64,000 bases of DNA, from contig NZ_JARUBE010000003.1 of NCBI RefSeq assembly GCF_029626035.1, positions 1,984,001-2,048,000 of the forward strand, read 5' to 3'. Shown in pieces: positions 8,520 to 50,346 of this stretch (position 1 is the first letter of the stretch; each line of letters starts with the position of its first letter). Source of the stretch: Micromonospora sp. WMMD980. Its GTDB lineage: Bacteria > Actinomycetota > Actinomycetes > Mycobacteriales > Micromonosporaceae. Below the pieces are notes generated by a model. That model searched no databases. It saw nothing but the letters and a program-made list of their open reading frames with translations, and was not told where the DNA came from. The translations under genes and the position numbers were made by a program.

Positions 8520-8544
8520 CCCGCCGTCCCGAGGAGACAGCACC

Positions 8545-12975: not shown

Positions 12976-13944
12976 ATGTCTGGTCTGTCGGTCACCACGC
13001 CCGTGCCGGCTCGGCTGACGTGGCGGTACGAGTCCGAGATGCCTCGGGTGCTCTCCCTCTACGAGCGGGCCAAGAGCGCGCAGTGGAACGCCACCACGGA
13101 CGTGGACTGGTCGATCCCGGTGCCGTTCGGCGAGCCGTTGCCCGACGACTCGGCGTTCGCCATGGCCTCCTTCGAGGCGTCCCCGCTGGCCGCGCGCGGT
13201 CGTCCGATGTGGGACACGTTCCGCTGGGAGCTCCAGTCCTGGATGGTCAGCCAGTTCCTGCACGGCGAGCAGGGCGCGCTGGTGGTCGCCGCCCGCCTGG
13301 TCGAGGTGGTCCCCGACCTGGACAGCAAGTACTACGCGGCCAGTCAGGCCGCCGACGAGGCGCGGCACGTCGAGGCGTTCTCCCGCTACCTGCGGGAGAA
13401 GGTGCCCGAGCCGTACCCGATCAACCCGGCGCTGGCCGAACTGCTGGAGGACCTGCTCTCCGACGCCCGCTGGGACATCACCGCGCTGGGCATGCAGATC
13501 ATCGTCGAGGCGTTGGCGATGGCCGCGTTCCGGCTCGCCAACAGCACCTTCCACGACCGGCTCATCTGCGACATCACCCGGCTGGTGGCCCGCGACGAGG
13601 CCCGGCACGTGTCCTTCGGCGTGCTGTCGCTGGAGGGCATCTACGCGGAGATGACGAGCGCCGAGCGGGCCGACCGGGAGGAGATGGTGCTCGAGTCGGC
13701 CAGCCTGATGCGCCGCCGGTTCCTGCTCGAGGACGTGTGGGAGCGCATCGAGGTCGACCGCGACGAGGGCGTCGACTTCGCCGCGCACAACGAGCTGATG
13801 ATCAAGTATCGGCAGGCCATCTTCGCCCGGGTGGTCACCGCCCTGGCCAACATCGGGCTGCTGACACCCCGGGTCCGCTCGGGCCTGGAACGCCTCGACC
13901 TCATCGGCTTCGCCGACCGCTCGATCCGCCTACCTCGCGCCTGA
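12976..13944 (+). CDS. Ferritin-like diiron oxygenase (AurF/R2-like)
   Basis: A 322-residue all-helical protein with a complete carboxylate-bridged diiron set: Glu98, Glu128 with His131 (DEARH), Glu178, and Glu208 with His211 (second DEARH). The E-x29-ExxH spacing in both halves fits ferritin-like oxygenases such as AurF-type N-oxygenases and R2-like oxidases. It is the first gene of the core operon, 11 bp before the NRPS start. It probably oxidises an amine, an amino acid or the assembled product; the actual reaction cannot be predicted. It needs an electron donor, and the only ferredoxin visible is at 42851. Confidence 0.8.
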   Translation: MSGLSVTTPVPARLTWRYESEMPRVLSLYERAKSAQWNATTDVDWSIPVPFGEPLPDDSAFAMASFEASPLAARGRPMWDTFRWELQSWMVSQFLHGEQGALVVAARLVEVVPDLDSKYYAASQAADEARHVEAFSRYLREKVPEPYPINPALAELLEDLLSDARWDITALGMQIIVEALAMAAFRLANSTFHDRLICDITRLVARDEARHVSFGVLSLEGIYAEMTSAERADREEMVLESASLMRRRFLLEDVWERIEVDRDEGVDFAAHNELMIKYRQAIFARVVTALANIGLLTPRVRSGLERLDLIGFADRSIRLPRA

Positions 13945-13955
13945 CCGGAGTGGAC

Positions 13956-16900
13956 ATGCCAGTGCTGACCACGCTGACCCTGGACGGCATGTGCGGCGAC
14001 GTCGCCGCGCTGCTCGAGGAGCCGGTGTCGCCCGACGACGACCTGCTGGAGCGCGGTCTCGATTCGATCGGCCTGATGCGGCTGGCGGCGCGGTGGTCCG
14101 CGGCCGGCGGGAACCTCACGTTCGGCCAGCTCATCGAGCACCGCACGGTACGCCAGTGGCACGCCCTGGCGCGGCCGGGCGACGATCCCGCGCCCACCTC
14201 GGAGCCGGCCGACGACGAGATGGTCGACCCCGGCGCGCCGTTCCCGCTGGCCACCATGCAGCACGCCTACTGGGTCGGACGCGCCGGGGACCAGGCGCTG
14301 GGCGGTGTGGGCGCGCACTTCTACAACGAGTTCGACGGCCGGCACGTGGACGCGTCGCGGCTGGAGCGGGCGGTGCGGGCGTTGGTGCGCCGGCACGACA
14401 TGCTGCGGGCCCGGTTCCTCGACGACGGCCGCCAGCAGATCACCCCGGACGGCGCGTGGCCCGGCCTGACGGTGCACGACCTGCGCGAGCTGACACCGGC
14501 CGACCGAGACCGGCGACTCGGCGAGCTGCGCGACACGCTGTCGCACCGCAGCCTGCGGGTGGACCGGGGTGAGGTGTTCGACATCCAGCTCTCGCTGCTG
14601 CCCGCGGGCGGCACCCGGATCCACGTCGAGATCGAGATGCTGGTCGCCGACGCACACAGCTTCCGGGTTCTCCTGGCCGACCTGGCCGCCCTCTACGACC
14701 GCCCCGACGAGCCGCTGCCGCCCATCGGCTACAGCTACCCGCGCTACCTGGCCGTGCACGCCCGCCGTCGGGCGGCCGCGCGGGCGGCCGCGTCCGCCTA
14801 CTGGCGGGAGCGGCTGCCAGGCTTGCCCGGTGGGCCCGAGCTGCCGGTCGCGGTCGCGCCGGAGCGGGTCACCGGGCACCGGGTGACCCGTCACCACCAC
14901 TGGTTGTCCGGCGCCGACCGGGACCGCCTCGCCGCCCGTGCGCGGGAGCACGGCATCACCCTGCCGATGGTGTTCCTGACCGCGTTCGCCGAGGTGCTGG
15001 CCGCCTGGAGCAGCCGGCAGCGTTTCCTGCTCAACCTGCCGCTGTACGACCGCACGCCGTACCACCCGGACGTGCCGCTGCTCAGCGGCGACTTCACCAA
15101 CCTGCTGCTGCTGGAGGTGGACGCCACCGCCGAGGTGCCCTTCGTCGAGCGGGCCCGCCGGCTGCACGAGCAGTTCACCCGCGACGTCGCGCACAGCGCG
15201 TACTCCGGGGTGGACGTGCTGCGTGACCTGGCCCGCCACCGTGCGGACCGGGCGGTGCTCGCGCCGGTGGTGTTCACCAGCGCGCTCAGCCTCGGTGAGC
15301 TGTTCGGCGCGGACGTGCGGACGTGCTTCGGGGATCCGGTGTGGACCAGCTCGCAGACCCCGCAGGTGTGGCTGGACAACCAGGTCACCGAGCGCGAGGG
15401 CGGCCTGTACCTGAACTGGGACGTGGTGGCGGAGCTGTTCCCGGCCGGGGTGTCGGAGGCGATGTTCGACGCCTACGTGGGGCTGCTGCGCGCGCTGGTG
15501 GCGGGGGACTGGTCGGCGTCGGTGGGGTTGCCGGCGGCGCAGCGGGTGGTGCGGGAGCGGGTGAACGACACCGTGGCCGTGTTGCCGACCGGGTTGCTGC
15601 ACGAGGGGTTCTTCGGGTGGGCGGCGCGGGAGCCGGGCCGCCCGGCGGCGTTGGGTGACGGTGTGTCGGTGTCCTACGGGGAGTTGGCCGAGCGGTCGTT
15701 GCGGCTGGCCGGTGCGCTGCTCCGGGCCGGGGTCGGCGCTGGCGACGCCATCGGGGTGTGTCTGCCCAAGGGCGTCGAGCAGTTCGTCGCGGTGCTGGCG
15801 GTGTTGGCGGCCGGCGGTGTGTACGTGCCGGTGGGGGTGGACCAGCCGGCGGTCCGGCGGGAGCGCATTCTCGCCCGGGCGGGAGCGAAGGTGCTGATCC
15901 GGGCCGACGACGACGGTCCCGGAGCGGCAACCGGCGACGCGGCGCCGGGTGGCAGCGTCCCGGTGGTTGGTCCGGGCGGTGACGGTGGGTCCGCGTTGGA
16001 GTGGCCGGTGCAGGTCGATCCGGCCGGGCTGGCGTATGTGATCTTCACGTCGGGGTCGACGGGGGAGCCCAAGGGTGTGGAGGTGTCGCACGCGGCGGCG
16101 ATGAACACGATCGAGGCGATCCGGCGGCGTTTCGACGTCGGTGTGGGCGATCGGGTGCTGGCGGTGTCGGCGTTGGACTTCGACCTGTCGGTGTTCGACG
16201 TGTTCGGGTTGCTCGGCGCCGGCGGCGCGGTGGTCGTGGTGGGCGAGGAGCAGCGCCGTGACGCCCGGGCGTGGCTGCGCCTGGCCACCGACCACCACGT
16301 CACGATCTGGCAGTCGGTGCCGGCGTTGCTGGACATGCTGCTCACCGCCGCCGAGGCCGACGGCGCGACCACCCACCTGCGACTCGCGCTGCTCGGCGGC
16401 GACTGGGTGGGGCTGGACCTGCCGGGCCGGCTGACCGCGTTGCGCCCGCACGCCCGGCTGGTCGCCCTCGGCGGCACGACCGAGACGGCGATCCACTCCA
16501 CCGTCCTCGAGGTCGGCGAGGTGCCGGCGCACTGGCGTTCCGTCCCCTACGGTCGGCCGCTGCCCAACCAGCGCTGCCGGGTTGTCGACGGGCGGGGCCG
16601 GGACTGCCCGGACTGGGTGCCGGGTGAGCTGTGGATCGGCGGGGCCGGCGTGGCCGCCGGCTACCGGGGCGACCCGCAACGCACCGGCGAACGGTTCGTC
16701 ACCCACGAGGGGACCCGCTGGTACCGGACCGGCGACCTCGGCCGCTACTGGCCCGACGGCACCCTGGAGTTCCTCGGCCGCACCGACCACCAGGTCAAGA
16801 TCCGCGGACACCGCATCGAACTCGGCGAGATCGAGGCCGCGTTGCTGCACCACCGCGCCGTGCGTGACGCGGTCGCCGTGGCGGTCGGCGCGACCACCCG

Positions 16901-19900
16901 CCGGCTCGCCGCCGCGGTCACCGTCCACCCCGGTTACGACGTCGACGACCTGCATGCCTTCCTCGGCGACCGGCTGCCCGCCCACATGGTCCCCGAGCAC
17001 GTCGCGGTCCTGGACGACCTGCCGCTGAGCGGCAACGGCAAGATCGACCGGCGGGCGCTGGCCGAGCGGCTGGCCGACCGGGCCGACCGGGCCACCGAGG
17101 TCCGGCCGCCGATCGGGCCGGTGGAGGCGGCACTGGCCGAGGTCTGGGCCGAGCTGCTCGACGTGCCGGCCGTCGGCCGCGCGGACAGCTTCTTCGCCCT
17201 GGGCGGGGACAGCCTGCTCGCCACCCGCCTGCTCGGTCGGATGCGGGCCGCCGGGCTGGCCGGCGGGCAACTGCGGCACCTGTTCGCCCAGCCGACGCTC
17301 AGCGGGTTCGCCGCCGGCCTGCGGCTGGAGCGCGGCCCCGGCGCGACCGCCGCGCTCACCCCGGACCTCGCCCACCGGCACGACCCGTTCCCGCTCACCG
17401 ACGTGCAGCGGGCGTACTGGATCGGGCGCACCGGCGACTTCGCGCTCGGCGAGGTGGGCTCGCACTGGTACTGGGAGTTCGACGGCGCGGACGTGGACCT
17501 CGACCGGCTCACCACGGCGTGGAACCGGCTGGTGCGCCGGCACGAGATGCTGCGCGCGGTCATCGACCCCGACGGGCGGCAACGCATCCTGCCCGAGGTG
17601 CCCGAGGTCGCCATCGGCGTCACCGAGGGTGGAGCGGCGCTCGCCGCACTGCGCGACCGGCTGTCGCACCGGGTCGCCGACCCGACCCGCTGGCCGCTGG
17701 TGGCGATCGAGGCCGTCCGGTACGGCGAGAACCGGGTCCGGCTGGCGTTCAGCTTCGACTACATCGTGCTCGACGCGCTGAGCATCGTCACCGTCTTCGC
17801 CGAACTGTCCGCCCTCTACACCGACCTCGACACTCCGCTGCGCCCGATCGGGGTGTCCTTCCGCGACTACGTGCTGCACGCCCAGCCCGACGCGGCGAGC
17901 GTCGACGAGGACCGGCGCTATTGGTCGGCGCAGGTCGCCGAGCTGCCGCCCGCGCCGCAGCTCCCGCTGGCCGTCGACCCGGACCGGGTCCGCGCGCCCC
18001 GGTTCGTCCGGCACGAGGGACGCCTCGACGCCGCGCGGTGGTCGAGCCTGGTGGCCATCGCCCGTACCCACGGCGTGAGCCCGGCCGCGGTCCTCGCCAC
18101 CGCGTACGCCGAGGTGCTCTCGGCGTGGAGCGGCCGGGGCGACCTCACGCTCAACCTGACCCTGTTCGACCGCCGTGAGGTGCACCCCGACATCGACTAC
18201 GTGTTGGGCGACTTCACCTCGCTGCTGCTCGTGCCGCACCGGCCGGTCGCCGGCGACGACTTCCTGAGCCTGGTCCGCCGCTTCCAGGAGCGGATGTGGG
18301 ACGGCATGGAGCACCACGGTGTGTCCGCCATCTGGGTGCTGCGGGAGATCGCCCGCCGCAGCGGCGCGGCCGCGGCGACCATGCCCGTGGTCTTCACCAG
18401 CGCACTCGGCATCAGCGACGAGCTGGTCAGCATGGACCTGCCGTTCGGCGAGCAGATCTGGGGCGCCTCGCAGACCCCGCAGGTGTGGCTGGACAACCAG
18501 GTCATGGAGCGTGACGGCGGCCTGCTCGTCAACTGGGACCTGGTGGCGGAGCTGTTCCCGCCCGGGGTGTCGGAGGCGATGTTCGACGCCTACCTGGAGT
18601 TGCTGCGCGGCCTGGCGCGGGGGGACTGGTCGCGGGCGTTGCCTGTCGGGTTGCCGGCGGCGCAGCGGGTGGTGCGGGAGCGGGTGAACGACACCGTGGC
18701 CGTGTTGCCGACCGGGTTGCTGCACGAGGGGTTCTTCGGGTGGGCGGCGCGGGAGCCGGGCCGCCCGGCGGCGTTGGGTGACGGTGTGTCGGTGTCCTAC
18801 GGGGAGTTGGCCGAGCGGTCGTTGCGGCTGGCCGGTGCGCTGCTCCGGGCCGGGGTCGGCGCTGGCGACGCCATCGGGGTGTGTCTGCCCAAGGGCGTCG
18901 AGCAGTTCGTCGCGGTGCTGGCGGTGTTGGCGGCCGGCGGTGTGTACGTGCCGGTGGGGGTGGACCAGCCGGCGGTCCGGCGGGAGCGCATTCTCGCCCG
19001 GGCGGGAGCGAAGGTGCTGATCCGGGCCGACGACGACGGTCCCGGAGCGGCAACCGGCGACGCGGCGCCGGGTGGCAGCGTCCCGGTGGTTGGTCCGGGC
19101 GGTGACGGTGGGTCCGCGTTGGAGTGGCCGGTGCAGGTCGATCCGGCCGGGCTGGCGTATGTGATCTTCACGTCGGGGTCGACGGGGGAGCCCAAGGGTG
19201 TGGAGGTGTCGCACGCGGCGGCGGTGAACACGATCGAGGCGATCCGGCGGCGTTTCGACGTCGGTGTGGGCGATCGGGTGCTGGCGGTGTCGGCGTTGGA
19301 CTTCGACCTGTCGGTGTTCGACGTGTTCGGGTTGCTCGGCGCCGGCGGCGCGGTGGTCGTGGTGGGCGAGGAGCAGCGCCGTGACGCCCGGGCGTGGCTG
19401 CGCCTGGCCACCGACCACCACGTCACGATCTGGAACACCGTGCCCGCGCTGCTCGACATGCTGCTCACCGCCGCCGGTGACGAGCCCCTGACGGCGCTGC
19501 GGCTCGCGCTGGTCTCCGGCGACTGGGTGGGGCTCGACCTGCGGGACCGGTTGACCGCCTGCCGGCCCGACGCGCGGCTCGTCGCGCTCGGCGGGGCCAC
19601 CGAGGCGGCGATCTGGTCGAACGCGTACGAGGTGCACGAGGTGCCGGCGCACTGGCGGTCCGTGCCCTACGGGCACCCGCTGCCCAACCAGCGCTACCGG
19701 GTTGTCGACGGGCGGGGCCGGGACTGCCCGGACTGGGTGCCGGGTGAGCTGTGGATCGGCGGGGCCGGCGTGGCCGCCGGCTACCGGGGCGACCCGCAAC
19801 GCACCGCCGGACGGTTCGTCACCCACGAGGGGACCCGCTGGTACCGGACCGGCGACCTCGGCCGCTACTGGCCCGACGGCACCCTGGAGTTCCTCGGCCG

Positions 19901-20477
19901 CACCGACCACCAGGTCAAGATCCGCGGACACCGCATCGAACTCGGCGAGATCGAGGCCGCGTTGCTGCACCACCGCGCCGTGCGTGACGCGGTCGCCGTG
20001 GCGGTCGGCGCGACCACCCGCCGGCTCGCCGCCGCGGTCACCGTCCACCCCGGCCACGACGTCGACGACCTGCGCGAACACCTAGGCGACCGGCTGCCCG
20101 CCTACATGATCCCCGAGCACGTCACGGTCCTCGATCAGCTCCCACTGACCGCAAACGGCAAGGTCGACCGCAACGCGGTGGCCCGGCTGCTCGCCACCGG
20201 CGACGGCGCGCCGCCCGACGAACCGCCCCGGCCCGGGCTGGAGACCGAGCTCGGCGCGCTCTGGGCCGAACTGCTGGGCTGCCCGACGCCCGGGCGCACC
20301 CGCAACTTCTTCGGCCTGGGCGGGGACAGCCTGCTCGCCACCCGCCTGCTGGCCGTGCTGCGCGAGCGCTACGGCGTCGACCTGCCGATGCGGGGACTGT
20401 TCGACCGACCCACCATCGCGGACCTGGCCGCCGCCGTGCAGGACGCCGCCGGCGCGTACGAGGAAGGGGCGATATGA
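13956..20477 (+). CDS. NRPS: ArCP-Cy-A-PCP-Cy-A-PCP
   Basis: A 2173-residue heterocyclising NRPS. Domains: aryl carrier protein (Ser37 in GLDSIGLM), Cy1 (~95-520), A1 (~548-1035), PCP1 (Ser1086), Cy2 (~1143-1570), A2 (~1589-2070), PCP2 (Ser2125). Cy2 has the DxxxxDxxS motif intact (Asp1268-Asp1273-Ser1276). Cy1 begins with Glu227 instead of Asp (Glu227-Asp232-Ser235). Specificity residues read by eye are DLFQLGLIHK for A1 (Asp743, Gln786, His847) and DLFNLSLIWK for A2 (Asp1784, Asn1827, Trp1887). The latter is cysteine-like, the former unusual. The layout matches HMWP2/PchE-type synthetases making aryl-thiazolines. ATG 13956 has GGAG 5 nt upstream. It has near-identical internal A-domain repeats and overlaps the next NRPS by 4 bp. 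Confidence 0.93.
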   Translation: MPVLTTLTLDGMCGDVAALLEEPVSPDDDLLERGLDSIGLMRLAARWSAAGGNLTFGQLIEHRTVRQWHALARPGDDPAPTSEPADDEMVDPGAPFPLATMQHAYWVGRAGDQALGGVGAHFYNEFDGRHVDASRLERAVRALVRRHDMLRARFLDDGRQQITPDGAWPGLTVHDLRELTPADRDRRLGELRDTLSHRSLRVDRGEVFDIQLSLLPAGGTRIHVEIEMLVADAHSFRVLLADLAALYDRPDEPLPPIGYSYPRYLAVHARRRAAARAAASAYWRERLPGLPGGPELPVAVAPERVTGHRVTRHHHWLSGADRDRLAARAREHGITLPMVFLTAFAEVLAAWSSRQRFLLNLPLYDRTPYHPDVPLLSGDFTNLLLLEVDATAEVPFVERARRLHEQFTRDVAHSAYSGVDVLRDLARHRADRAVLAPVVFTSALSLGELFGADVRTCFGDPVWTSSQTPQVWLDNQVTEREGGLYLNWDVVAELFPAGVSEAMFDAYVGLLRALVAGDWSASVGLPAAQRVVRERVNDTVAVLPTGLLHEGFFGWAAREPGRPAALGDGVSVSYGELAERSLRLAGALLRAGVGAGDAIGVCLPKGVEQFVAVLAVLAAGGVYVPVGVDQPAVRRERILARAGAKVLIRADDDGPGAATGDAAPGGSVPVVGPGGDGGSALEWPVQVDPAGLAYVIFTSGSTGEPKGVEVSHAAAMNTIEAIRRRFDVGVGDRVLAVSALDFDLSVFDVFGLLGAGGAVVVVGEEQRRDARAWLRLATDHHVTIWQSVPALLDMLLTAAEADGATTHLRLALLGGDWVGLDLPGRLTALRPHARLVALGGTTETAIHSTVLEVGEVPAHWRSVPYGRPLPNQRCRVVDGRGRDCPDWVPGELWIGGAGVAAGYRGDPQRTGERFVTHEGTRWYRTGDLGRYWPDGTLEFLGRTDHQVKIRGHRIELGEIEAALLHHRAVRDAVAVAVGATTRRLAAAVTVHPGYDVDDLHAFLGDRLPAHMVPEHVAVLDDLPLSGNGKIDRRALAERLADRADRATEVRPPIGPVEAALAEVWAELLDVPAVGRADSFFALGGDSLLATRLLGRMRAAGLAGGQLRHLFAQPTLSGFAAGLRLERGPGATAALTPDLAHRHDPFPLTDVQRAYWIGRTGDFALGEVGSHWYWEFDGADVDLDRLTTAWNRLVRRHEMLRAVIDPDGRQRILPEVPEVAIGVTEGGAALAALRDRLSHRVADPTRWPLVAIEAVRYGENRVRLAFSFDYIVLDALSIVTVFAELSALYTDLDTPLRPIGVSFRDYVLHAQPDAASVDEDRRYWSAQVAELPPAPQLPLAVDPDRVRAPRFVRHEGRLDAARWSSLVAIARTHGVSPAAVLATAYAEVLSAWSGRGDLTLNLTLFDRREVHPDIDYVLGDFTSLLLVPHRPVAGDDFLSLVRRFQERMWDGMEHHGVSAIWVLREIARRSGAAAATMPVVFTSALGISDELVSMDLPFGEQIWGASQTPQVWLDNQVMERDGGLLVNWDLVAELFPPGVSEAMFDAYLELLRGLARGDWSRALPVGLPAAQRVVRERVNDTVAVLPTGLLHEGFFGWAAREPGRPAALGDGVSVSYGELAERSLRLAGALLRAGVGAGDAIGVCLPKGVEQFVAVLAVLAAGGVYVPVGVDQPAVRRERILARAGAKVLIRADDDGPGAATGDAAPGGSVPVVGPGGDGGSALEWPVQVDPAGLAYVIFTSGSTGEPKGVEVSHAAAVNTIEAIRRRFDVGVGDRVLAVSALDFDLSVFDVFGLLGAGGAVVVVGEEQRRDARAWLRLATDHHVTIWNTVPALLDMLLTAAGDEPLTALRLALVSGDWVGLDLRDRLTACRPDARLVALGGATEAAIWSNAYEVHEVPAHWRSVPYGHPLPNQRYRVVDGRGRDCPDWVPGELWIGGAGVAAGYRGDPQRTAGRFVTHEGTRWYRTGDLGRYWPDGTLEFLGRTDHQVKIRGHRIELGEIEAALLHHRAVRDAVAVAVGATTRRLAAAVTVHPGHDVDDLREHLGDRLPAYMIPEHVTVLDQLPLTANGKVDRNAVARLLATGDGAPPDEPPRPGLETELGALWAELLGCPTPGRTRNFFGLGGDSLLATRLLAVLRERYGVDLPMRGLFDRPTIADLAAAVQDAAGAYEEGAI
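15525..16933 (+). repeat. Adenylation-domain DNA repeat, copy 1
   Basis: Two near-identical blocks within A1. Block 15525-16310 (786 bp) matches 18648-19433 with one difference seen (A/G near 16101). Block 16577-16933 matches 19697-20053 with two differences seen. The ~266 bp between them, which carries the specificity pocket after motif A5, is clearly diverged. The pattern indicates duplication or gene conversion sparing the substrate-binding segment. Confidence 0.9.
18648..20053 (+). repeat. Adenylation-domain DNA repeat, copy 2
   Basis: Partner of the repeat at 15525-16933, lying in A2. Offsets are 3123 bp for the first block and 3120 bp for the second, so the diverged middle segment differs in length by one codon. 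The outer edges coincide with the end of the Cy domain on the left and the A8-A9 linker on the right. Confidence 0.9.
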
Positions 20478-23400
20478 ACGGGCAGGACCTGGTCGCCGAA
20501 CTGGCGGAACTCGGTGTTCGACTCTGGGAGGAGGACGGCCAGCTCCGCTTCCGCGCCCCGGCCGGCGTCCTGACCGACCAGCGGCGGGCCGCGCTGCGCC
20601 AGCACCGGGAGGAGGTGCTGGCCGCGGTCCGGGACGCCGCCGTCCCCACCGCCGTGCCGCACCCCGAGCAACGGTACGAGCCGTTCCCGCTCACCGACGT
20701 GCAGAGCGCCTATCTGCTCGGGCGCGGCGACACGTTCGCCTACGGCGGGATCGGCTGCCACGGCTACGGCGAGCTGGGCTTCGACGATCTCGACGTCGAC
20801 CGACTCGAAGACGCCTGGCGGGAGTTGGTGGCCCGGCACGACATGCTCCGGGCCGTGGTCGACCGCGACGGCTCCCAGCAGGTACGCCCCGACGTCCCGC
20901 CGTACCGGATCGAGGTGCGCGACGCGGACGCGGACGGCTTCGCCGACGCGGTCGCCGCCACCCGCGCGGAGCTGGACCACCGGCGCTACGACCCACGGCA
21001 GTGGCCGCTGTTCACGCTGCGGGTGACCCGGGGCCCGGAACGTCACGTGCTGCACTTCTCGATCGACTTCCTGGTCTGCGACTTCGTCAGCATCAACCTG
21101 CTCCTCGACGAGTTGGGCCGCCGCTACGCCGGTGACCCGCCCGCCGAGGACCTGGAGCTGACGTTCCGGGACCATCTGCTGGCCACCGCGCCGCTGCGCG
21201 ACGGGCCACGCCGCGACGCCGACCGGGACTGGTGGCTGGCCCGCCTCGACGACCTGCCGCCCGCGCCGGAGCTGCCGCTGCGCCCCGACGCGCTCGCCGC
21301 GCCACCCCGGTTCCGCCGCCTCGACCTGCGGCTCGACGCCACCGAGTGGGCCGGGCTGCGGCAGCGCGCCGGCCGGCACGGCATCACCCCGTCCGGTGCC
21401 GTGCTCGCCGCGTACGCCGAGGTGATCGCCGCCTGGAGCGCCCACCCGCGCTTCTGCGTCGACGTCACGCTGCTCGACCGCACGCCGACGCACCCGCAGG
21501 TCGACCGGATCGTCGGCGACTTCACCTCGGTCAGCCTGCTCGCCGTCGAGCAGGACCCGGACGCGCCCGTGCAGGAGCGGGCCAAGCGGCTACAGGCCCA
21601 GCTCTGGTCCGACCTGGACCACCGCCGATTCTCCGGCGTCGACGTGCTGCGCGAGGTGGCCCGGCGGCGGGGCGCCGACGCTGCGCTGCTGCCTGTGGTG
21701 TTCACCAGCGCGATCGGGCTCGGCGGCGACACCGGGGTGGAGGGCTTCGGCGAGCTGGGCTACGGCATCAGCCAGACACCGCAGGTCTGGATCGACTGCC
21801 AGAACATCGAACGCTCCGGCGGGCTCGCCACCAACTGGGACGTGCGCGAGGGCGTCTTCCCGGACGGTGTGGTCGACGAGATGTTCGCCGCGTACACGGC
21901 GCTGCTGCGCCGGCTGGCCGGCACCGACGAGGCGTGGGAGGAGATCGCCCCGGTCGCGCTGCCGGCGGCGAGCGCCCGCCGGCGGGCCGAGGTCAACGAC
22001 ACCGCCGCGCCGTTGCCCGACGGGCTGCTGCACGAGGGCGTGCTCGCGCAGGCGCTGCGGACCCCGGACCGGGTCGCGGTGGTGGCGCCCGACGCGAGTC
22101 TGACCTACCGGCAGCTCACCGGGCGGGCGAGCGCGGTCGCCGTCCGGCTCGTCGAGGCCGGCTGCCGCCCCGGCGACCTGGTCGCGGTGGTGGCCGACAA
22201 GGGCTGGCGGCAGGTCGTCGCGGTGTTCGGCGCGCTGCTGGCCGGCGCCGCGTACGTGCCGGTCGACACCAACCAGCCACCGGCGCGCCGCGACCTGATC
22301 CTCGCCGGCGCGAGCGTGCGGCACGTGCTCACCGAAAGCGGTCGCGCGGACGGCGACTGGCCGGCACAGGTCGAGGTGATCGCCGTGGACGGCTGCGACG
22401 GCCCCGCGCCGGCCGCGCTGTCACCGCGCCTGGCCGGCCCCGACGATCTGGCGTACGTCATCCACACATCGGGTTCCACCGGCACGCCGAAGGGCGTGAT
22501 GATCACGCACCGGGCGGCGCTGAACACGGTGGTCGACATCAACACCCGGTTCGACGTGACCGCCGACGACCGGATCCTCGGCCTGGCCAGTCTCGGTTTC
22601 GACCTGTCCGTCTACGACCTGTTCGGCCCGCCGGCGGTCGGTGCCGCCCTGGTGCTGCCCGCGCCGGGGCGGCGCGGCGACCCCACCCACTGGGCGGACC
22701 TGGTGACCGGTCACGAGGTGACGCTCTGGAACTCGGTGCCGGCGCAGATGCAGATGCTCGCCGACTATCTCGCCGCCGCGCCGATGGTGCGGACGCCGTC
22801 GCTGCGGCTGGCGCTGCTCAGCGGCGACTGGATCCCGGTCACCCTGCCCGATGCGATCCGCGCCCTGGTGCCCGGCCTGGCCGTGGTCGGCCTGGGTGGC
22901 GCTACCGAGGCGGCGATCTGGTCGATCATCCACCCGGTCGGCGCGGTCGACCCGGCGTGGCGCAGCATCCCCTACGGCGTGCCGCTGGCCAACCAGAGCT
23001 GGCACGTGCGCGACGCCGGCCTGCGCGACCGCCCGGACTGGGTCACCGGCGAGCTCTACATCGGCGGCGCCGGCCTGGCCTCGGGTTATCTCGGCGATCC
23101 CGAGCGCACCGCCGAACGGTTCGTCACCGACCCGACCACCGGACAGCGGCTCTACCGCACCGGCGACCTGGGCCGCTACCGGCCCGACGGGGTGATCGAG
23201 TTTCTCGGGCGGGAGGACCACCAGGTCAAGGTGCGCGGGCACCGGATCGAGCTGGCCGAGGTGGAGGCCGCGCTGCTCGCCCATCCGGCGATCGGTGCCG
23301 CCGTCGCCGTGGTCGACGGGGACCGCCCGTTGGAGCGCAGGTTGGCCGCCGTGGTCCAGCCGGCCGCCGTGGAACCCGGCCCGGCCACGACCGTCGAACC

Positions 23401-25501
23401 GGCCGGACCCGCCGCCGCCGGCACCGCCGTGGTCGCCGGCACCGACCTGGACGGGTACGCGGCGTACCTGCACGACCTGGACCGCCTCGGCCTGGCGGCC
23501 ATGCTGGACACGCTGCGCGCGGCCGGCCTGTTCCTCGACGACCGGCCGCACCCGCTCGCCGGGATCTACGCGGGCACCGGCGTCGCGCCACGCCACCGCC
23601 GGCTGCTGCGGCGCTGGCTGCGGGCGCTCACCGACTCGGGCGTGCTGCGGCGCGACGACGACGCGTACCGGCTGGGGCAGGCGCTGTCGCCGGCGGCGCG
23701 CGCGTGGGACGCGGCGGCCCGGCGGGCGGCGGAGGTGGGGGAGGCGCCGGAGTTGGTGCGCTACTTCCAGGGCAGCGCCGCGGCGCTGCCGGCGCTGCTG
23801 CGCGACGACGAGGACCCGCTGGCGCTGCTCTTCCCCGCCGGCGAACTGGCGGTGTCGGACAACCTCTACGCGGGCGCCCTGTTCAACAGGTGGGCCAACG
23901 CGGTCGCCGCCGCGGCGGTGCGGGCGCTCGTCGAACGGCTGCCCGCCCCGGTGCGGATCGTGGAGGTCGGCGCCGGTTCGGGCGGCACCACCGCGGCCGT
24001 GCTCGACGCGCTCGACGGTCTGGACGTCGACTACCTCTACACCGACCTGTCCGGGTTCTTCGTCGAGGCCGGCCGGCAGCGCTTCGGCGACCGGCCGGGC
24101 CTGCGCTTCGCCACGTTGGACCTCGACGCCGACCCGGCCGGGCAGGGCCTCGCCCCGAACAGCGCCGACCTGGTGATCGCCGGGGACGTGCTGCACGCCA
24201 CCCGGGACGTGCCGGCCACCCTGGACCGGCTGCGCGGCATCCTCGCCCCGGGCGGGCATCTGGTGCTGCTGGAGATGACCCGGGAGCACTACCAGATCAT
24301 GACGTCGCTGGAGCTGCTGGTGCGCCTCGACGACGAGCTGGGGGACTTCGCCGACCTGCGGCGCGGCACCGACCGGACGTTCCTCGACGCGGACGAGTGG
24401 CGGAGCCTGCTCACCGGGGCCGGCGCCGCGCCGGTGCTCGACCTGCCCGCGCCCGACGACCCGATGGCCGGGCTCGGGATGCGGATCATCGCGGCCCGGG
24501 TCAAGGCGGACCGGCGTCGGGTGGTGCCGGACGAGCTGCGGGCGCACCTGGCCGACCGGCTGCCCGACTACATGGTGCCGAGCGTGGTGCAGGTGGCCGA
24601 CGAGCTGCCCCGCACCGCGAACGGGAAGCTCGACCGCGCGGCCGTCCGCCGGCTGGTGGCGGCCGCCACGGCGGGCCCGGAGACCGGCGGCGCCGCGCCG
24701 AACGCCGGGCTGGAGGAGGAGATCGCGGCCGTCTGGGCGGACGTGCTGCGGGTGGAGCGGGTGAGCCGCGACGCCGACTTCTTCGCCCTCGGCGGGGACT
24801 CGCTGCTCGCCGCGAAGCTCGCCGGACAGCTCGCCGAGCGGGTGCCGGCGGCGTCCGGGGTCTTCTTCGACGAACTGCTGCGGACCATCCTGGAGCACCC
24901 CACCGTCGGCGCCCTCGCCGAACGACTCGCGGCCACGGCCGGACCCGCCGCACCCGACGACGAGCCGGCCGTCGGTGCGGTCGAGGTGACCCGGCTCGCC
25001 GGTGACGGCCCGCCCCGGTACCTGCTGGTGCACGACGGCAGCGGCCGGCTCGACGCGTACGCCGGCCTCCCGGCCGGGCTGGCGACCGCCGGTGCGGTGT
25101 GGGGCGTGGCCGACGGGGCGCTGCACCGTTACGCCGGCCTGGACCCGGCGCCGCTGGTGCAGCGGCTCGCCGCCGACTACGCCGCCGACCTGGCCGGGCA
25201 CCTGACGAGGGGACCGTTGACGGTGGTGGGCCGGGGCGATGCCGGCGCGCTGGCGTTGGAACTGGCCCGCCAGCTCACCGAGTCCGGGCTGGACGTGGCC
25301 GGGCTGGCGGTCGCCGACCCGGTCCCCGGCGACGCCTACGCCAGCTCGCCGTACGCCGGGGACGTGACGCTGCTCTGCCCGGGTGAGCCGGACCCGGCCG
25401 GGGTGGCCTGGTGGCGTGAGGTGTGCCTCGGCGAGCTGACCGTGGCCCGGGTGCCGGACGAGCCGGCCGGCTGGTCCGACGCGATCGTCGGGGAGGGCTG
25501 A
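20474..25501 (+). CDS. NRPS: docking domain-Cy-A(embedded MT)-PCP-degenerate TE
   Basis: A 1675-residue NRPS. The N terminus (residues 1-60, ELGVRLWEEDGQLRFRAP) is a TubC-type docking domain. Cy3 has DxxxxDxxS intact (Asp198-Asp203-Ser206). The A domain reads DLYNLSLIWK (Asp710, Asn753, Trp816), a canonical cysteine code. A methyltransferase (SAM motif VEVGAGSGG near residue 1163) is inserted between A8 and A9, as in PchF-type synthetases. PCP Ser1443 follows. The last ~180 residues look like a thioesterase, but the GxSxG site is GRGDA with Gly1588 at the serine position, and the domain is short, so it is probably inactive. The expected action is addition, cyclisation and methylation of a third cysteine. 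Confidence 0.93.
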   Translation: MNGQDLVAELAELGVRLWEEDGQLRFRAPAGVLTDQRRAALRQHREEVLAAVRDAAVPTAVPHPEQRYEPFPLTDVQSAYLLGRGDTFAYGGIGCHGYGELGFDDLDVDRLEDAWRELVARHDMLRAVVDRDGSQQVRPDVPPYRIEVRDADADGFADAVAATRAELDHRRYDPRQWPLFTLRVTRGPERHVLHFSIDFLVCDFVSINLLLDELGRRYAGDPPAEDLELTFRDHLLATAPLRDGPRRDADRDWWLARLDDLPPAPELPLRPDALAAPPRFRRLDLRLDATEWAGLRQRAGRHGITPSGAVLAAYAEVIAAWSAHPRFCVDVTLLDRTPTHPQVDRIVGDFTSVSLLAVEQDPDAPVQERAKRLQAQLWSDLDHRRFSGVDVLREVARRRGADAALLPVVFTSAIGLGGDTGVEGFGELGYGISQTPQVWIDCQNIERSGGLATNWDVREGVFPDGVVDEMFAAYTALLRRLAGTDEAWEEIAPVALPAASARRRAEVNDTAAPLPDGLLHEGVLAQALRTPDRVAVVAPDASLTYRQLTGRASAVAVRLVEAGCRPGDLVAVVADKGWRQVVAVFGALLAGAAYVPVDTNQPPARRDLILAGASVRHVLTESGRADGDWPAQVEVIAVDGCDGPAPAALSPRLAGPDDLAYVIHTSGSTGTPKGVMITHRAALNTVVDINTRFDVTADDRILGLASLGFDLSVYDLFGPPAVGAALVLPAPGRRGDPTHWADLVTGHEVTLWNSVPAQMQMLADYLAAAPMVRTPSLRLALLSGDWIPVTLPDAIRALVPGLAVVGLGGATEAAIWSIIHPVGAVDPAWRSIPYGVPLANQSWHVRDAGLRDRPDWVTGELYIGGAGLASGYLGDPERTAERFVTDPTTGQRLYRTGDLGRYRPDGVIEFLGREDHQVKVRGHRIELAEVEAALLAHPAIGAAVAVVDGDRPLERRLAAVVQPAAVEPGPATTVEPAGPAAAGTAVVAGTDLDGYAAYLHDLDRLGLAAMLDTLRAAGLFLDDRPHPLAGIYAGTGVAPRHRRLLRRWLRALTDSGVLRRDDDAYRLGQALSPAARAWDAAARRAAEVGEAPELVRYFQGSAAALPALLRDDEDPLALLFPAGELAVSDNLYAGALFNRWANAVAAAAVRALVERLPAPVRIVEVGAGSGGTTAAVLDALDGLDVDYLYTDLSGFFVEAGRQRFGDRPGLRFATLDLDADPAGQGLAPNSADLVIAGDVLHATRDVPATLDRLRGILAPGGHLVLLEMTREHYQIMTSLELLVRLDDELGDFADLRRGTDRTFLDADEWRSLLTGAGAAPVLDLPAPDDPMAGLGMRIIAARVKADRRRVVPDELRAHLADRLPDYMVPSVVQVADELPRTANGKLDRAAVRRLVAAATAGPETGGAAPNAGLEEEIAAVWADVLRVERVSRDADFFALGGDSLLAAKLAGQLAERVPAASGVFFDELLRTILEHPTVGALAERLAATAGPAAPDDEPAVGAVEVTRLAGDGPPRYLLVHDGSGRLDAYAGLPAGLATAGAVWGVADGALHRYAGLDPAPLVQRLAADYAADLAGHLTRGPLTVVGRGDAGALALELARQLTESGLDVAGLAVADPVPGDAYASSPYAGDVTLLCPGEPDPAGVAWWREVCLGELTVARVPDEPAGWSDAIVGEG

Positions 25502-25502
25502 C

Positions 25503-26606
25503 GTGCCGGGCGCGATCGCGCTGGTCGGCGCGAGCGGCGGGGTGGGCCGGCACGCGCTGGCGCACCTGCTGGCGTGGACCGTGGACACCGTCCGCGCGGG
25601 CGGCCGCCACCCGGGACGGCTGCCGGCAGGTGACGCGCGGGTCCAGGCGTACCCGGTGGACCTGACCGACCCCGACGGCCTGGACGCGTTCTGCGCGGGC
25701 TGCCACACGGTCGTCAACTGCGCCGGTCCCGCCGGCACGGTCGGTGACAGGGTGGCCCGAGCCGCGGCCCGCGCCGGCGCGGCCTACGTCGACGCCGCCG
25801 GTGACGACGGGCTGTACCGAGCCGTCGCCGCGCTGCCCGACGCCGCCGAGCGGGTCGCGGTGATCTCCGCCGGGATGATGCCAGGTCTGTCCGGGCTGCT
25901 CCCGGCGTACCTCGCCGGGCACCTGCCGGGCGCCCGGCGGCTGACCGGCTGGGTCGGCGGGCGCGACGGGTTCAGCCCGGGCGCGGCCTGGGACTTCCTC
26001 GCGGTCGGCGACAGCGGCTACGGCGAACCGCTCGCCGCCTGGCGCGACGGCGCCCGGCGCGGCCGGGCGCTGGCCGCGCACGCCGACGTGACGGTGCCGT
26101 TCTTCGACGAACCGGTGCTGCTCCAGCCGTATCTGAGCACCGAGACCGAGCGGCTGGCCGGGCGGCTCGGCCTGACCGACGTGGACTGGTGGTCGGCGTT
26201 CGCCGGCGATCGGGTTCCGGCCGCGCTCGCCGCCGGCGCGCGCCGCGCCGGCGGCGGTCCGGCGGAGCTGGCCGCCGCGGCGGACGCGCTGTGCCGGGCG
26301 GCCGAGCTGGACGCCTTCGGCCGACCCCGCTACCAGGTGTTGCTCGTGGAGCTGACCTCGCCGGCCGGCAGTCGGGTGCTGGTCTGCCGGGGCGTCGGCG
26401 CGAACGCGCTCACCGGGGCCGCGGTGGCGCTCGGCGCGGTGGCGGCCGCCGCCGGTGACCTGCCGCCGGGCGTGCACCATCTGGCCGAGGTGGTCGACCC
26501 GACGTGGGCGGTGGACCGGCTGCGGACCAGCCCGGCGGTCACCGCGCTGCACGTCGAGGACGGCCCCCTGACCCGCTACGAGACGATCGAGGAGGGGGTG
26601 GCGTGA
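25503..26606 (+). CDS. Saccharopine dehydrogenase-like NAD(P)-binding protein
   Basis: A 367-residue protein with an N-terminal Rossmann fold (ALVGASGGVGRHALAHLL) and the following HTVVNCAGPAGTVGDRVARA and AYVDAAGD segments of the saccharopine-dehydrogenase/trans-acting enoyl reductase group. It starts at GTG 25503, one base after the NRPS stop, and overlaps the imide reductase gene by 4 bp. It lies between the NRPS and a thiazoline reductase, so reduction or oxidation of a ring or thioester on the assembly line is the likely job. The exact reaction is not deducible. Confidence 0.75.
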   Translation: MPGAIALVGASGGVGRHALAHLLAWTVDTVRAGGRHPGRLPAGDARVQAYPVDLTDPDGLDAFCAGCHTVVNCAGPAGTVGDRVARAAARAGAAYVDAAGDDGLYRAVAALPDAAERVAVISAGMMPGLSGLLPAYLAGHLPGARRLTGWVGGRDGFSPGAAWDFLAVGDSGYGEPLAAWRDGARRGRALAAHADVTVPFFDEPVLLQPYLSTETERLAGRLGLTDVDWWSAFAGDRVPAALAAGARRAGGGPAELAAAADALCRAAELDAFGRPRYQVLLVELTSPAGSRVLVCRGVGANALTGAAVALGAVAAAAGDLPPGVHHLAEVVDPTWAVDRLRTSPAVTALHVEDGPLTRYETIEEGVA

Positions 26607-27766
26607 GACCGAGGGTGCTCGTCGCCGGTACCAAGTTCGGCCAGGTCTACCTGCAGGCGTTCCGGCAGCGTGACTTCCCGTTCGAGCTGGCCGGGATCCT
26701 GGCCGGCGGAAGCGCCCGCTCGGTGGCCTGCGCCCGGCACTACGGCGTGCCGCTGTTCACCGACGTGTCGCAGGTGCCCGAGGACGTGACGCTGGCCTGC
26801 GTGGTGATCCGCGGCGGCCTGCTCGGCGGGCCCGGCGGCGAGGTGGCGCGCGCGTTGATGGAGCGCGGGCTGCACGTGGTGCAGGAGCATCCGCTGCACC
26901 ACGACGAGCTGGTCGAGTGCCTGCGCACCGCCGGCCGGGCCGGCGTGGTCTACCACCTCAACTCGTTCTACGTGCACACCGCGCCGGTGCGCCGGTTCGT
27001 CGCGGCGGCCCGTGCCCTGCTGGCCCGCCGTCCGGCCCGCTACGTCGACGCGGCGTGCGGCTTCCAGGTCGCGTACGCGCTGCTGGACATCCTCGGCCAG
27101 GCGCTCGGCGGGGTCCGCCCGTGGGGCCTGGCGGCCCCGGCGGAGCTGCCCGAGCAGGTACGCCGGCTGTCCCCGGTGGACGTGCCGTTCCGCAGCGTCG
27201 ACGGGGTGCTCGCCGGGGTGCCGCTGACCCTGCGGGTGCAGAACCAGATGGACCCGGCCGACCCGGACAACTACGCGCACCTGCTGCACCGGGTCACCAT
27301 CGGCACCGAGGCCGGCAACCTGACCCTGCTCGGCACCCACGGCCCGACCGTCTGGAGCCCCCGGCCGGACTTCCCGCAGCAGGTGCAGGACCGGGGGATA
27401 GGCCGCCCACACTTCGCCGGCTCCGGTGGGGACGAGCCGGACCACCTGGACGTGCCGAGCGCGCAACCGCTGGACGAGCCGACCGCGCCCAGCTACCGCG
27501 ACGTGTTCGAGCGGGTCTGGCCGGCCGGCGTGGGACACGCGCTGGGCGAGCTGCACCGCGCGGCCCAGGCCGGCGAGAAGCCGGTCCGCCACGGCCAGTA
27601 CCACCTGACCCTGTGCCGGCTGTGGCAGGACGTCACCGCCCGGCTCGGCCCGCCCGAGCTGCTGCACTCCACGCCACCGCGGATGCTGCTGCCCGCCGAC
27701 GTGGCGGAGCTGGCCGACGCCGCCGCCCGCGCGGTCGAGCCGGAGCCGATCGGGGCGTCGCGGTGA
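26603..27766 (+). CDS. Thiazolinyl imide reductase (PchG/Irp3-YbtU family)
   Basis: A 387-residue protein matching the Gfo/Idh-like thiazolinyl imide reductases of pyochelin and yersiniabactin synthesis. Characteristic stretches are RVLVAGTKFGQVYLQAF at the N terminus, LAGGSARSVACARHYGVPLFTDV, QEHPLHHDE, and YHLNSFYVHTAPVRRF. These enzymes reduce a carrier-bound thiazoline to thiazolidine with NADPH while the chain is on the NRPS. This is strong support for a thiazoline/thiazolidine-containing product, and combined with the embedded methyltransferase it predicts one reduced, possibly N-methylated ring. GTG 26603 overlaps the preceding stop and has a strong GGAGGGG site. Confidence 0.92.
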   Translation: MRPRVLVAGTKFGQVYLQAFRQRDFPFELAGILAGGSARSVACARHYGVPLFTDVSQVPEDVTLACVVIRGGLLGGPGGEVARALMERGLHVVQEHPLHHDELVECLRTAGRAGVVYHLNSFYVHTAPVRRFVAAARALLARRPARYVDAACGFQVAYALLDILGQALGGVRPWGLAAPAELPEQVRRLSPVDVPFRSVDGVLAGVPLTLRVQNQMDPADPDNYAHLLHRVTIGTEAGNLTLLGTHGPTVWSPRPDFPQQVQDRGIGRPHFAGSGGDEPDHLDVPSAQPLDEPTAPSYRDVFERVWPAGVGHALGELHRAAQAGEKPVRHGQYHLTLCRLWQDVTARLGPPELLHSTPPRMLLPADVAELADAAARAVEPEPIGASR

Positions 27767-28536
27767 CCGCCGCCCGGACCTGGCTGCGCTGCCCCCGGCC
27801 GCTGCGCTGGCCGGCGCTGCGCCTGGTCTGCTTCCCGCACGCCGGCGGCAACGCGGCGTTCTACCGGCCCTGGGCGGCGCACCTGCCCGACGACGTGGAG
27901 CTGCACGCCGTGCAGTACCCGGGCCGGATGGACCGCACCGGGGAGCCGTTCGCCGCCGACCTGCCGAGCCTGGCCGCCGGGGTCGCGTCCGCGCTGCGCG
28001 CGCTGCCCGGCGACATCCCGCTGGTCCTGTTCGGGCACAGCCTCGGTGCGTCGGTGGCGTACGAGACGGCCCGCCGGTTGGACGGGCCGGGCGGCGGGCT
28101 GCGGGCGCTCGTGGTGTCCGGCCGCCCGGCGCCCGACCGGCTGCGCGACACGCGCGTGCACCTGGCCGACGACGACACGCTCTGGGCCGAGACCGGCCGC
28201 CTCGGCGGGACCGGCCGGGAGACGCTGGAGCACGACGGGGTGAAGGCGGTCGCCCTGCCGGTGCTGCGCGCCGACTACCGGATCGCCGAGACGTGGCGGC
28301 CGGAGCCGCCGGTGCCGTTGCGCGCGCCGGTGCTGGCCTGCGTCGGCGCGGACGACAGCGAGGTCACCGTGGACGAGGCGAACGCGTGGGCCGCCCGGAC
28401 CCGGGGCCGGTTCACCCTGCACACGTTCCCGGGCGGGCACTTCTATCTGCTCGCCCACCGGCACCACCTGGTCGAGACGATCCTGCGCGCCACGCACCGC
28501 AGCCCGGTGCCCACCTGGTCGGCGGCCGGTCCGTGA
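27763..28536 (+). CDS. Type II thioesterase (GrsT-like)
   Basis: A 257-residue alpha/beta-hydrolase of the stand-alone NRPS/PKS thioesterase family. It shows the early [15 protein letters not shown] motif, [13 protein letters not shown], the nucleophile elbow GHSLG (Ser93) and the late GGHFYLL histidine region. Usually such enzymes clear misprimed carrier domains. Since the NRPS-encoded thioesterase lacks its serine, this protein may instead perform product release (inference). It overlaps both neighbours by 4 bp. Confidence 0.9.
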
Positions 28537-29350
28537 TCCCGGCACACCTGCGCTACCACCGCGCCGCCGACCTGACCGAGGCGCTGCGGCTGCGGCGCGA
28601 GCACGGCGACCTGCTGCGACCGCTGGCCGGCGGGCAGTCCCTGCTGCCGGCGCTGAAGCTACGCCGCGACGCCGTCGACACGCTGCTGGACCTGGGCCGG
28701 CTCACCGACCTGTCGTACGTGGCGGCGCGGGGCGACCACCTCGCGGTCGGCGCGCTGACCCGCTACCACCTGCTGCTCGCCGACCCGCTCGTGGCGCGGC
28801 ACGCGCCGATCCTGGCGGCGGCTGCCGCGTCGGTCGGCGACCCGCAGGTGCGCCACGCCGGCACGGTCGGCGGGGCGCTGGCCCAGGCCGACCCGGCCGC
28901 GGACCTGCCGACCGCGCTTGTCGCGCTGACCGCCACCGCGGTCCTGACCAGCGTGGACGGTTCCCGGCTGGTGCCCGTCGACGAGCTGGCCGTGGCGCCG
29001 GGCGTCACCGTGTGCCGGCCCGACGAACTGCTCACCGAGGTGCGGGTGCCGCTGCCCGGCCCGCGCCGGTGGAGCTACCGCACGTTCGCCCGGCCGGCGC
29101 TGGAGTGGTCACTTGTCGCCGTCGCGGTGGCCGACGACCGGGTCGCGCTGGCCGGCATGGACCGGACCATCCGGCGGGCGAGCACCGTCGAGGCGGCGCT
29201 CGCCGCAGGCGCGTCGACGGCGGACGCCGCGGCGTACGCGGACCGCGACTGCGAACCGGCCGACGACGTGCGCGGCTCCGCCGACTACCGCCGGCACCTG
29301 AGCCGGGTGCTGGTGGCCCGGGCGCTTGCCGACCGCGACCAGGAGCGACG

Positions 29351-29354
<4 letters not shown>
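28533..29354 (+). CDS. Molybdenum hydroxylase FAD-binding (medium, CoxM-like) subunit
   Basis: A 273-residue FAD subunit of the xanthine dehydrogenase/CO dehydrogenase superfamily. The two flavin-binding motifs are visible: [14 protein letters not shown] near residue 35 and [18 protein letters not shown] near residue 110. It transfers electrons from the 2Fe-2S subunit, encoded next, to the final acceptor. The matching large subunit is not adjacent but lies on the other strand at 43117-45363. Tight 4-bp overlaps with the thioesterase and the iron-sulfur subunit show it belongs to the NRPS operon. Confidence 0.9.
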
Positions 29355-29854
<500 letters not shown>

Positions 29855-29882
29855 ACCGCAGAAACCGGAAGGGAGACCGACG

Positions 29883-41811: not shown

Positions 41812-41821
41812 GAGGTTCTCG

Positions 41822-50340: not shown

Positions 50341-50346
50341 GCGGCC

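Follow-up and report, generated by a model that had tools for sequence, protein, structure and literature searches.

Judged from its sequence, a 64,000-nucleotide stretch of Micromonospora sp. WMMD980 DNA (contig NZ_JARUBE010000003.1, positions 1,984,001 to 2,048,000; the whole stretch is called the window below) carries, in one conserved cluster, a coelibactin/sorangibactin-type nonribosomal peptide synthetase (NRPS) line with three heterocyclization (Cy) domains and a highly reducing (polyene) type II polyketide synthase (PKS). The locus is best read as a single biosynthetic gene cluster about 65-70 kb long, and it is probably a merger of two known kinds of system, a metallophore-type azoline NRPS and a highly reducing type II PKS. 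We consider it probable that the two arms form one pathway leading to a single aryl-azoline/polyketide hybrid product, whichever end carries the polyketide, and that this is not a siderophore cluster, because gene order, genus-wide co-location, a molybdenum (Mo) hydroxylase split between operons, and loss of the nucleophile of the terminal thioesterase (TE) all point in that direction. The same evidence supports the single hybrid aryl-azoline/polyketide pathway put forward in an earlier note on this DNA (the original prediction).

All 56 genes from 414 to 70312 keep their order and strand in five of five related species (G087, G047, G041, G053 and G054), at about 67% identity or more, and the block contains 0, 1, 4, 0 and 0 further gene calls, respectively; in a sixth, G123, the contig begins at the saccharopine-dehydrogenase gene and agrees from there on. 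Tested genes of both arms gave dN/dS values of 0.14-0.31 (G000, the window genome, vs G041 or G053). The cluster flanks differ in part among relatives. Mobility, considered on the basis of these differing flanks, was dropped, as right-flank genes are common to G000, G087 and G047, and G053, G054, G123 and G021 share theirs. Across 160 genomes of the genus, which are related, so that the counts are not independent events, a ketosynthase (KS) of at least 65% identity lies within 35 kb of 26 of the 31 thiazolinyl imine reductases of at least 53% identity and of 0 of the 10 less similar ones; counted by genome (reductase at least 53%, KS at least 60%), 28 have both, 3 the reductase only, 5 the KS only and 124 neither. 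Outside the genus, the reductase and the KS are 18-28 kb from each other on the same contig in Sphaerimonospora mesophila, a Planotetraspora, Catelliglobosispora koreensis and Streptomyces sp. MspMP-M5, making four of the five non-Micromonospora records with a reductase of at least 60%; one metagenome-assembled genome (MAG) has them on different contigs. In plasmid records (tblastn), KS relatives reached at most 60.9% (Streptomyces sp. NBC_01296) and reductase relatives at most 47.9%. In a reductase tree (38 rows, G144 absent) the main hybrid clade has support of 100/95, and because G030 and G138 are placed beside metallophores, with weak support, the NRPS-PKS merger may have happened twice.

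A whole-genome search found one Mo-hydroxylase large (L) subunit and one FAD (M) subunit. The M and 2Fe-2S (S) subunits are encoded in the NRPS operon and the L subunit 13.8 kb away, in an opposite-strand cytochrome P450 block, so that the enzyme, if functional, would tie these two together because its sole L and M subunits are divided between them. By itself it does not tie in the PKS operon, whose link is made by conservation and co-location. The left edge encodes XdhC and a MobA-like protein, both in keeping with Mo-hydroxylase maturation; XdhC, just outside the conserved block, is present in three of the five clade relatives. The enzyme looks like an addition of this clade, since it occurs in 0 of the 7 more distant hybrid loci read. 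The idea that loss of XdhC in G021 tracks a lost Mo hydroxylase was dropped, as G053 and G054 also lack XdhC there yet keep the hydroxylase.

The TE of the second synthetase (NRPS2) reads GRGDAG where GYCxGG is expected, the Cys nucleophile having been lost; in sorangibactin synthesis, changing the TE Cys to Ala or Ser abolished production (PMC10127202). Of the 26 co-located hybrids, 22 are readable at this site, the others being G123, whose contig does not reach NRPS2, and G118, G124 and G144 (frame broken or not alignable). In the 22, Gly takes the place of the nucleophile in 20 and Asp in 2. The Cys is retained in 12 of 14 PKS-free loci, which are all the remaining loci whose contig has no KS within 35 kb, including the short contigs G036 (14.0 kb) and G112 (40.9 kb). 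G026, with reductase and KS on separate contigs, falls in neither group and has Gly. Beyond Micromonospora the four co-located loci (Gly) and the MAG (Ala) have lost the Cys; it is retained in the loci of Kitasatospora and Frateuria, two genomes in which no KS above 41% identity was found at E 1e-60. In the G055 and G112 loci, on whose contigs no KS was found, the TE Cys is gone and the His region is retained.

The aryl-acid AMP ligase of the window is likewise altered. Its closest solved structure is a salicylate-AMP ligase (5wm2, 601.6 bits), and it has Ala at the position of DhbE Tyr236 and Cys at that of Ser240. Position 236 is Ala in 12 of 12 hybrids read, out of the 26 co-located, and Phe or Tyr in four of four PKS-free loci and in both solved relatives compared; no aryl ligase above 40% identity was found in the 40 and 80 kb read of G116 and G030. 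Sorangibactin, a characterised coelibactin-like compound, is started from salicylate that SrbB makes (PMC10127202). A salicylate synthase over the curated cut-off was found in 11, and an isochorismate synthase in 4, of the 160 genomes, and 23 of the 26 hybrid genomes, the window's included, have neither (TIGR03494 and TIGR00543 cut-offs). G003 and G117, hybrid genomes with salicylate synthase, each also have a second, PKS-free reductase locus.

The same genome holds a paralogous line at C3:1.04-1.06 Mb, 0.95 Mb from the window and 57% identical over NRPS1. This coelibactin-like paralogue retains the TE Cys (GYCLGG) and adjoins ZnuA, ABC-3 and ABC genes (zinc uptake) and ABC half-transporters, one of which, compared with solved structures, has YbtQ and IrtB as its nearest bacterial relatives. 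The paralogue region (G000:C3:1022001-1076000) also contains a DegT aminotransferase, a luciferase-like monooxygenase (LLM) enzyme and a DAO-type oxidase.

A codon-position gene finder called 52 genes in the window; Pfam scans covered 50 of them together with the left-edge genes, and NCBIfam scans covered 20. The features are listed below by window coordinates and strand, with domains abbreviated as A (adenylation), ArCP and PCP (aryl and peptidyl carrier protein), MT (methyltransferase), ACP (acyl carrier protein), KR (ketoreductase), DH (dehydratase) and CLF (chain length factor).

1..421, continuing to -712 beyond the window (-): XdhC, Mo cofactor insertion for the Mo hydroxylase (PF13478, PF02625)
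414..941 (-): MobA-like nucleotidyltransferase, probably Mo-cofactor maturation (PF12804; in 5/5 relatives)
1080..2834 (+): acyl-CoA dehydrogenase A, 584 aa (PF00441)
2831..3865 (+): PlsX-like acyl phosphate enzyme (PF02504)
3944..6431 (+): DrrA-type ABC exporter, ATPase and two ABC-2 membrane proteins (PF00005, DrrA1-3_C, PF01061)
6444..7283 (-): acyl-CoA thioesterase, 4HBT type (PF13622)
7353..9621 (+): acyl-CoA dehydrogenases B and C (Pfam; also beside the PKS operon in G006 and G111)
9600..9995 (-): VOC protein 1 (PF00903)
10074..11600 (+): GMC oxidoreductase, MftG-like but under the curated cut-off
11610..12896 (-): solo condensation (C) domain, HHLVTDAWS motif, proposed offloading/coupling enzyme (PF00668)
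13003..13944 (+): AurF-like diiron oxygenase, two ExxH motifs (PF11583, 36 bits)
13962..20477 (+): NRPS1, ArCP-Cy1-A1-PCP-Cy2-A2-PCP (Pfam, motif alignment)
20474..25501 (+): NRPS2, docking-Cy-A3(MT)-PCP-decayed TE (Pfam, alignment)
25503..26606 (+): saccharopine-dehydrogenase-like oxidoreductase, SrbE-like by domain (PF03435)
26603..27766 (+): thiazolinyl imine reductase (TIGR01761; YbtU/Irp3)
27763..28536 (+): type II thioesterase, GHSLGA (PF00975)
28533..29354 (+): Mo-hydroxylase FAD (M) subunit (Pfam; sole M found in the genome)
29351..29854 (+): Mo-hydroxylase 2Fe-2S (S) subunit (Pfam)
29883..31571 (+): carbamoyltransferase (Pfam)
31624..32103 (-): VOC protein 2 (Pfam)
32114..33184 (-): O-methyltransferase 1 (Pfam)
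33244..34617 (+): LLM monooxygenase 1, NtaA/DmoA family (TIGR03860, 505.9 bits)
34623..35774 (-): acyl-CoA dehydrogenase-like flavoenzyme D (PF08028)
35866..37587 (+): fatty acyl-AMP ligase, FAAL (best NCBIfam match is the FAAL model, under its cut-off)
37612..37917 (+): acyl carrier protein 1 (ACP1), adjoining FAAL (Pfam)
37995..39047 (+): methyltransferase (Pfam)
39089..40681 (-): aryl-acid AMP ligase, DhbE-type (NCBIfam, solved-structure comparison)
40774..42847 (+): O-methyltransferases 2 and 3 (Pfam)
42851..43045 (+): ferredoxin (Pfam)
43117..45363 (-): Mo-hydroxylase large (L) subunit (Pfam; sole L found in the genome)
45388..47783 (-): two cytochromes P450, a and b (Pfam)
47883..49157 (+): cytochrome P450 c (Pfam)
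49201..51594 (+): thiolase and family III CoA-transferase (Pfam)
51606..53570 (+): type II PKS KR, two FabA-like DH, ACP2 (Pfam)
53574..57955 (+): two KS/CLF pairs (Pfam, active-site residues)
57952..61103 (+): alpha/beta hydrolase, 4HBT thioesterase, DsbA-like protein (which we take, from the HCCA isomerases, to be a possible isomerase), class II aldolase (Pfam)
61130..63910 (+): acyl ligase-P450 fusion (Pfam)
63915..64000, running to 65039 (+): LLM 2, start inside the window, then an FMN reductase at 65066-65599 beyond it

The NRPS arm forms a co-directional run of 9 genes (13003-31571) and the PKS arm another of 18 (47883-65599); since these are different runs, the promoters that the original prediction had the arms share are rejected. 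Its account of the parts fared better. Pfam recognises three carrier, two condensation/Cy and two AMP-binding domains in NRPS1, which begins within 6 bp of the start first given, and in NRPS2 a TubC_N docking domain, a Cy domain, an A domain with embedded methyltransferase, a PCP and a TE remnant slightly under the cut-off. The pair thus has the coelibactin/sorangibactin layout, ArCP-Cy-A-PCP-Cy-A-PCP plus Cy-A(MT)-PCP-TE, and the imine reductase and saccharopine-dehydrogenase-like genes adjoin it as in that set. The reductase, which had been called PchG/Irp3-type, scores 346 bits against TIGR01761 (cut-off 188.8) and 168 bits against YbtU/Irp3. The type II TE, the DhbE-type ligase and the listed neighbours (KS/CLF pairs, FAAL-ACP, Mo hydroxylase S, M and L subunits, four P450 units, LLM enzymes, carbamoyltransferase) were also found, the P450 units being three genes and one domain fused to a ligase. 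As the note had said, no siderophore uptake gene was recognised when Pfam was run on 50 of the 52 called genes and on the left-edge genes, the sole transporter among them being the DrrA-type ABC exporter.

The claim of an aryl-poly-thiazoline line stands in part. The predicted specificity codes are DLFQLGLIH for A1, DLFNLSLIW for A2 and DLYNLSLIW for A3; measured against what we take to be the Cys reference code, A1 differs, and A2 and A3 resemble it. The A1 code is the same in all six aligned clade members, and Q occupies its fourth position in five of six distant hybrids. Module 1 is therefore probably not Cys-specific, so that thiazoline probably accounts for no more than two of the three rings and an all-thiazoline chain is unsupported. 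We predict Ser or Thr as the module 1 substrate because the first A domain of sorangibactin, for which software predicts Cys, uses Ser, as feeding showed (PMC10127202). At the DNA level, A1 and A2 of the window strain share 92.4% identity, rising to 99-100% across the first eight 90-base bins (~720 bp) and falling to 77-81% in the three bins that hold most of the specificity pocket. The pattern, which recurs more weakly in five clade relatives, looks like intragenic gene conversion with selection holding both specificities apart.

Cy2 and Cy3 carry D-x4-D and Cy1 carries E-x4-D in place of the ordinary HHxxxDG condensation motif, which is absent from the three Cy regions; the solo C domain has HHxxxD. 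The Cy1 E-x4-D form recurs in 11 of 12 aligned hybrids, with D-x4-D in G030 and two metallophore lines. A 350-500 aa relative of the solo C domain with HHxxxD is present in 12 of 12 examined hybrid loci that reach its position, and no relative was found in the four PKS-free loci examined. Among distant hybrids, the AurF-like oxygenase (68-72% identity) occurs in six of seven, and FAAL (47-56%) with ACP1 (50-62%) in seven of seven.

In the PKS arm, KS1 and KS2 have the C-H-H residues and CLF1 and CLF2 do not, and KR, DH and ACP are encoded in the same operon as the KS/CLF pairs, as expected of a highly reducing type II PKS. The nearest solved structure to KS1 is 6kxd, presumably the ishigamide KS, at 405 bits, followed by one at 338; the best FabF-type enzyme scores 271. 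KS1 is present in seven of seven distant hybrid loci read and in 0 of 3 metallophore-type loci. The operon also encodes a thiolase, a CoA-transferase, an aldolase and the ligase-P450 fusion, and because these trimming enzymes are present, a product trimmed to an aryl acid would be a chemically plausible end point. Ligase and P450 are separate neighbouring genes in seven of eight loci outside the clade in which both were read, and fused in G006; their fusion here, of two genes that most relatives outside the clade keep apart, suggests that both act on the same intermediate.

Along the most likely route, the PKS polyene would be cyclised or trimmed by the thiolase, CoA-transferase, acyl-CoA dehydrogenases, aldolase and ligase-P450 into a bulkier aryl acid than salicylate, and the aryl ligase would load this acid on the ArCP; we put such a PKS-made starter itself at somewhat less than an even chance. 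With Ser or Thr then loaded by module 1 and Cys by modules 2 and 3, the chain would be an aryl-oxazoline-thiazoline-methylated azoline in which one ring is reduced. As the nucleophile of the terminal TE is gone, the chain would leave the last PCP through another enzyme, most likely the solo C domain, for which we propose a coupling/offloading role and which would join the chain to a group loaded on ACP1 by FAAL. Tailoring would involve the P450s, O-methyltransferases, AurF-like oxygenase, LLM enzymes and carbamoyltransferase, with the Mo hydroxylase added in this clade only among the loci read, and the Drr-type ABC transporter would export the product. We hold only tentatively, as a possibility that is on balance unlikely, the full proposal that a metallophore line was repurposed by means of a type II PKS-made aryl starter with beta-oxidation-like trimming, decay of its TE and transfer of the chain to a trans condensation domain, giving a new hybrid class in Micromonospora, Salinispora, Catelliglobosispora, Sphaerimonospora, Planotetraspora and Streptomyces.

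The polyketide might instead be attached at the other end: a salicylate-like starter would open the chain, and the solo C domain would couple the type II polyketide, loaded through FAAL and ACP1, to the azoline chain on the PCP. The presence of FAAL and ACP1 in all seven distant hybrids, of the HHxxxD solo domain in all 12 examined and of a TE without nucleophile in 22 of 22 is what such coupling would lead one to expect, but the altered aryl pocket in all 12 hybrid ligases read and the missing salicylate and isochorismate synthases are then left unexplained, and FAAL with ACP1 could load an unrelated fatty acid. We regard this arrangement as rather unlikely, and its share is included in the probability that we give to one pathway. 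It is improbable, in our estimate, that two unrelated pathways, for an aryl-azoline metallophore and a type II polyketide, merely lie side by side, a view to which the separate co-directional runs and the occurrence of the PKS module without this NRPS in G021, G006 and a second copy in G111 lend themselves; co-location in 26 genus genomes and in four of five other records, the split Mo hydroxylase, the unbroken order in all five clade species, and the near confinement of TE decay and ligase change to PKS-bearing loci argue against it. More doubtful still is a siderophore or zincophore with the extra genes as mere decoration. The NRPS, reductase and saccharopine-dehydrogenase-like genes do match the coelibactin/sorangibactin set, and a YbtP/IrtA-like transporter pair lies close to the edge of the cluster in G025 and G149, but the window combines a lost TE nucleophile with no recognised uptake gene, and a separate coelibactin-like paralogue with ZnuA/ABC-3 zinc uptake is present in the same genome.

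Several observations weigh against the single-pathway reading or parts of it. G021 keeps the PKS arm (KS1 89%) without the block from 11.6 to 48.9 kb, also lacking the 584-residue acyl-CoA dehydrogenase and having a shortened GMC gene; because its PKS genes show dN/dS of 0.13-0.29, that is, purifying selection with no clear relaxation, the PKS arm may work alone. G006 combines the PKS module with another, yersiniabactin-like line (ACP-Cy-A-PCP plus type I KS-AT-KR-ACP-Cy-TE); its aryl-ligase-like protein (44%) lacks the Ala motif, and no imine reductase was found there at E 1e-30. G111 has a second PKS copy, and no NRPS was recognised in the 40 kb read there. Because of these three arrangements the PKS module appears portable, which fits a supplier of building blocks and also permits independent use. 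The PKS-free G055 and G112 loci lack the TE Cys as well, and the E-x4-D motif of Cy1 in 11 of the 12 aligned hybrids means that ring 1 may never form. The absence of salicylate synthase, considered as proof of a PKS-starter route, is weakened and not diagnostic, because the genome's own PKS-free metallophore paralogue sits there without a recognised salicylate synthase too. Finally, the YbtP/IrtA-like ABC pairs of G025 and G149 (the latter presumably Salinispora tropica CNB-440) are 84-85% identical between the two, the G025 gene has YbtP/IrtA-type importers as its nearest bacterial solved relatives, and G142 has another half-transporter pair; these YbtPQ/IrtAB-like pairs of G025 and G149 mean that the wider family may have a metallophore function. 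Both the G025 and the G149 hybrid also encode one more NRPS, Cy-A-PCP-TE (about 1318 aa), and G025, the one of the two examined by Pfam and structure searches, has two DAO-type oxidases.

If the hybrid reading is true, it would illustrate how a siderophore-type NRPS can become the scaffold of a different type of natural product. Three sequence marks, the lost TE nucleophile, the altered aryl-ligase pocket and the linked type II PKS, could serve as search criteria for such clusters in genomes that may list them as siderophores, and the presence of the family in several culturable strains makes it a practical discovery target. A literature search limited to open-licence PMC papers linked no known compound to this architecture. 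The 2014 genome paper on M. lupini Lupac 08 lists an orphan cluster 6, 'NRPS+PKS' (Milup08_43546-43581), and assigns its reductase MiLup_43551 to siderophore synthesis (PMC4182475); by the place of that reductase inside the interval, cluster 6 is the same locus in a sister species, and the two-arm architecture is not discussed in the portions of the paper available. For S. tropica CNB-440, the adjacent orphan clusters sid3 and sid4 are listed without product in the excerpt consulted (PMC7888443), and may be the same thing as the G149 hybrid locus.

Compared with the sorangibactin (srb) and coelibactin systems (PMC10127202), the window has the same pair of seven-domain and five-domain NRPSs with Cy domains and a methyltransferase, and the same aryl-AMP ligase, saccharopine-dehydrogenase-like protein, thiazolinyl imine reductase, P450 and VOC genes. 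Unlike them, it has no recognised salicylate synthase and no uptake genes, its TE nucleophile is lost and its ligase pocket changed, and it contains more than 40 further genes, including the type II PKS. With yersiniabactin and pyochelin it shares the ArCP-Cy logic and an imine reductase related to YbtU/Irp3, but its A1 is predicted to be of non-Cys type, and it has neither a type I PKS module nor Ybt-type uptake. The type II PKSs of kitacinnamycin and epoxinnamide include KR and DH and in some cases two or more KS/CLF pairs, and their polyenes are proposed to close to a benzene ring (PMC6510318, PMC9321520). Like these cinnamoyl peptide PKSs and that of ishigamide, the window has KR, DH, ACP and two KS/CLF pairs, with type II PKS and NRPS in one cluster; unlike the cinnamoyl nonribosomal peptide systems, its NRPS uses heterocyclisation-type domains and an aryl starter, and its PKS operon adds a thiolase, a CoA-transferase, an aldolase and a ligase-P450 to what the ishigamide and cinnamoyl PKSs contain.

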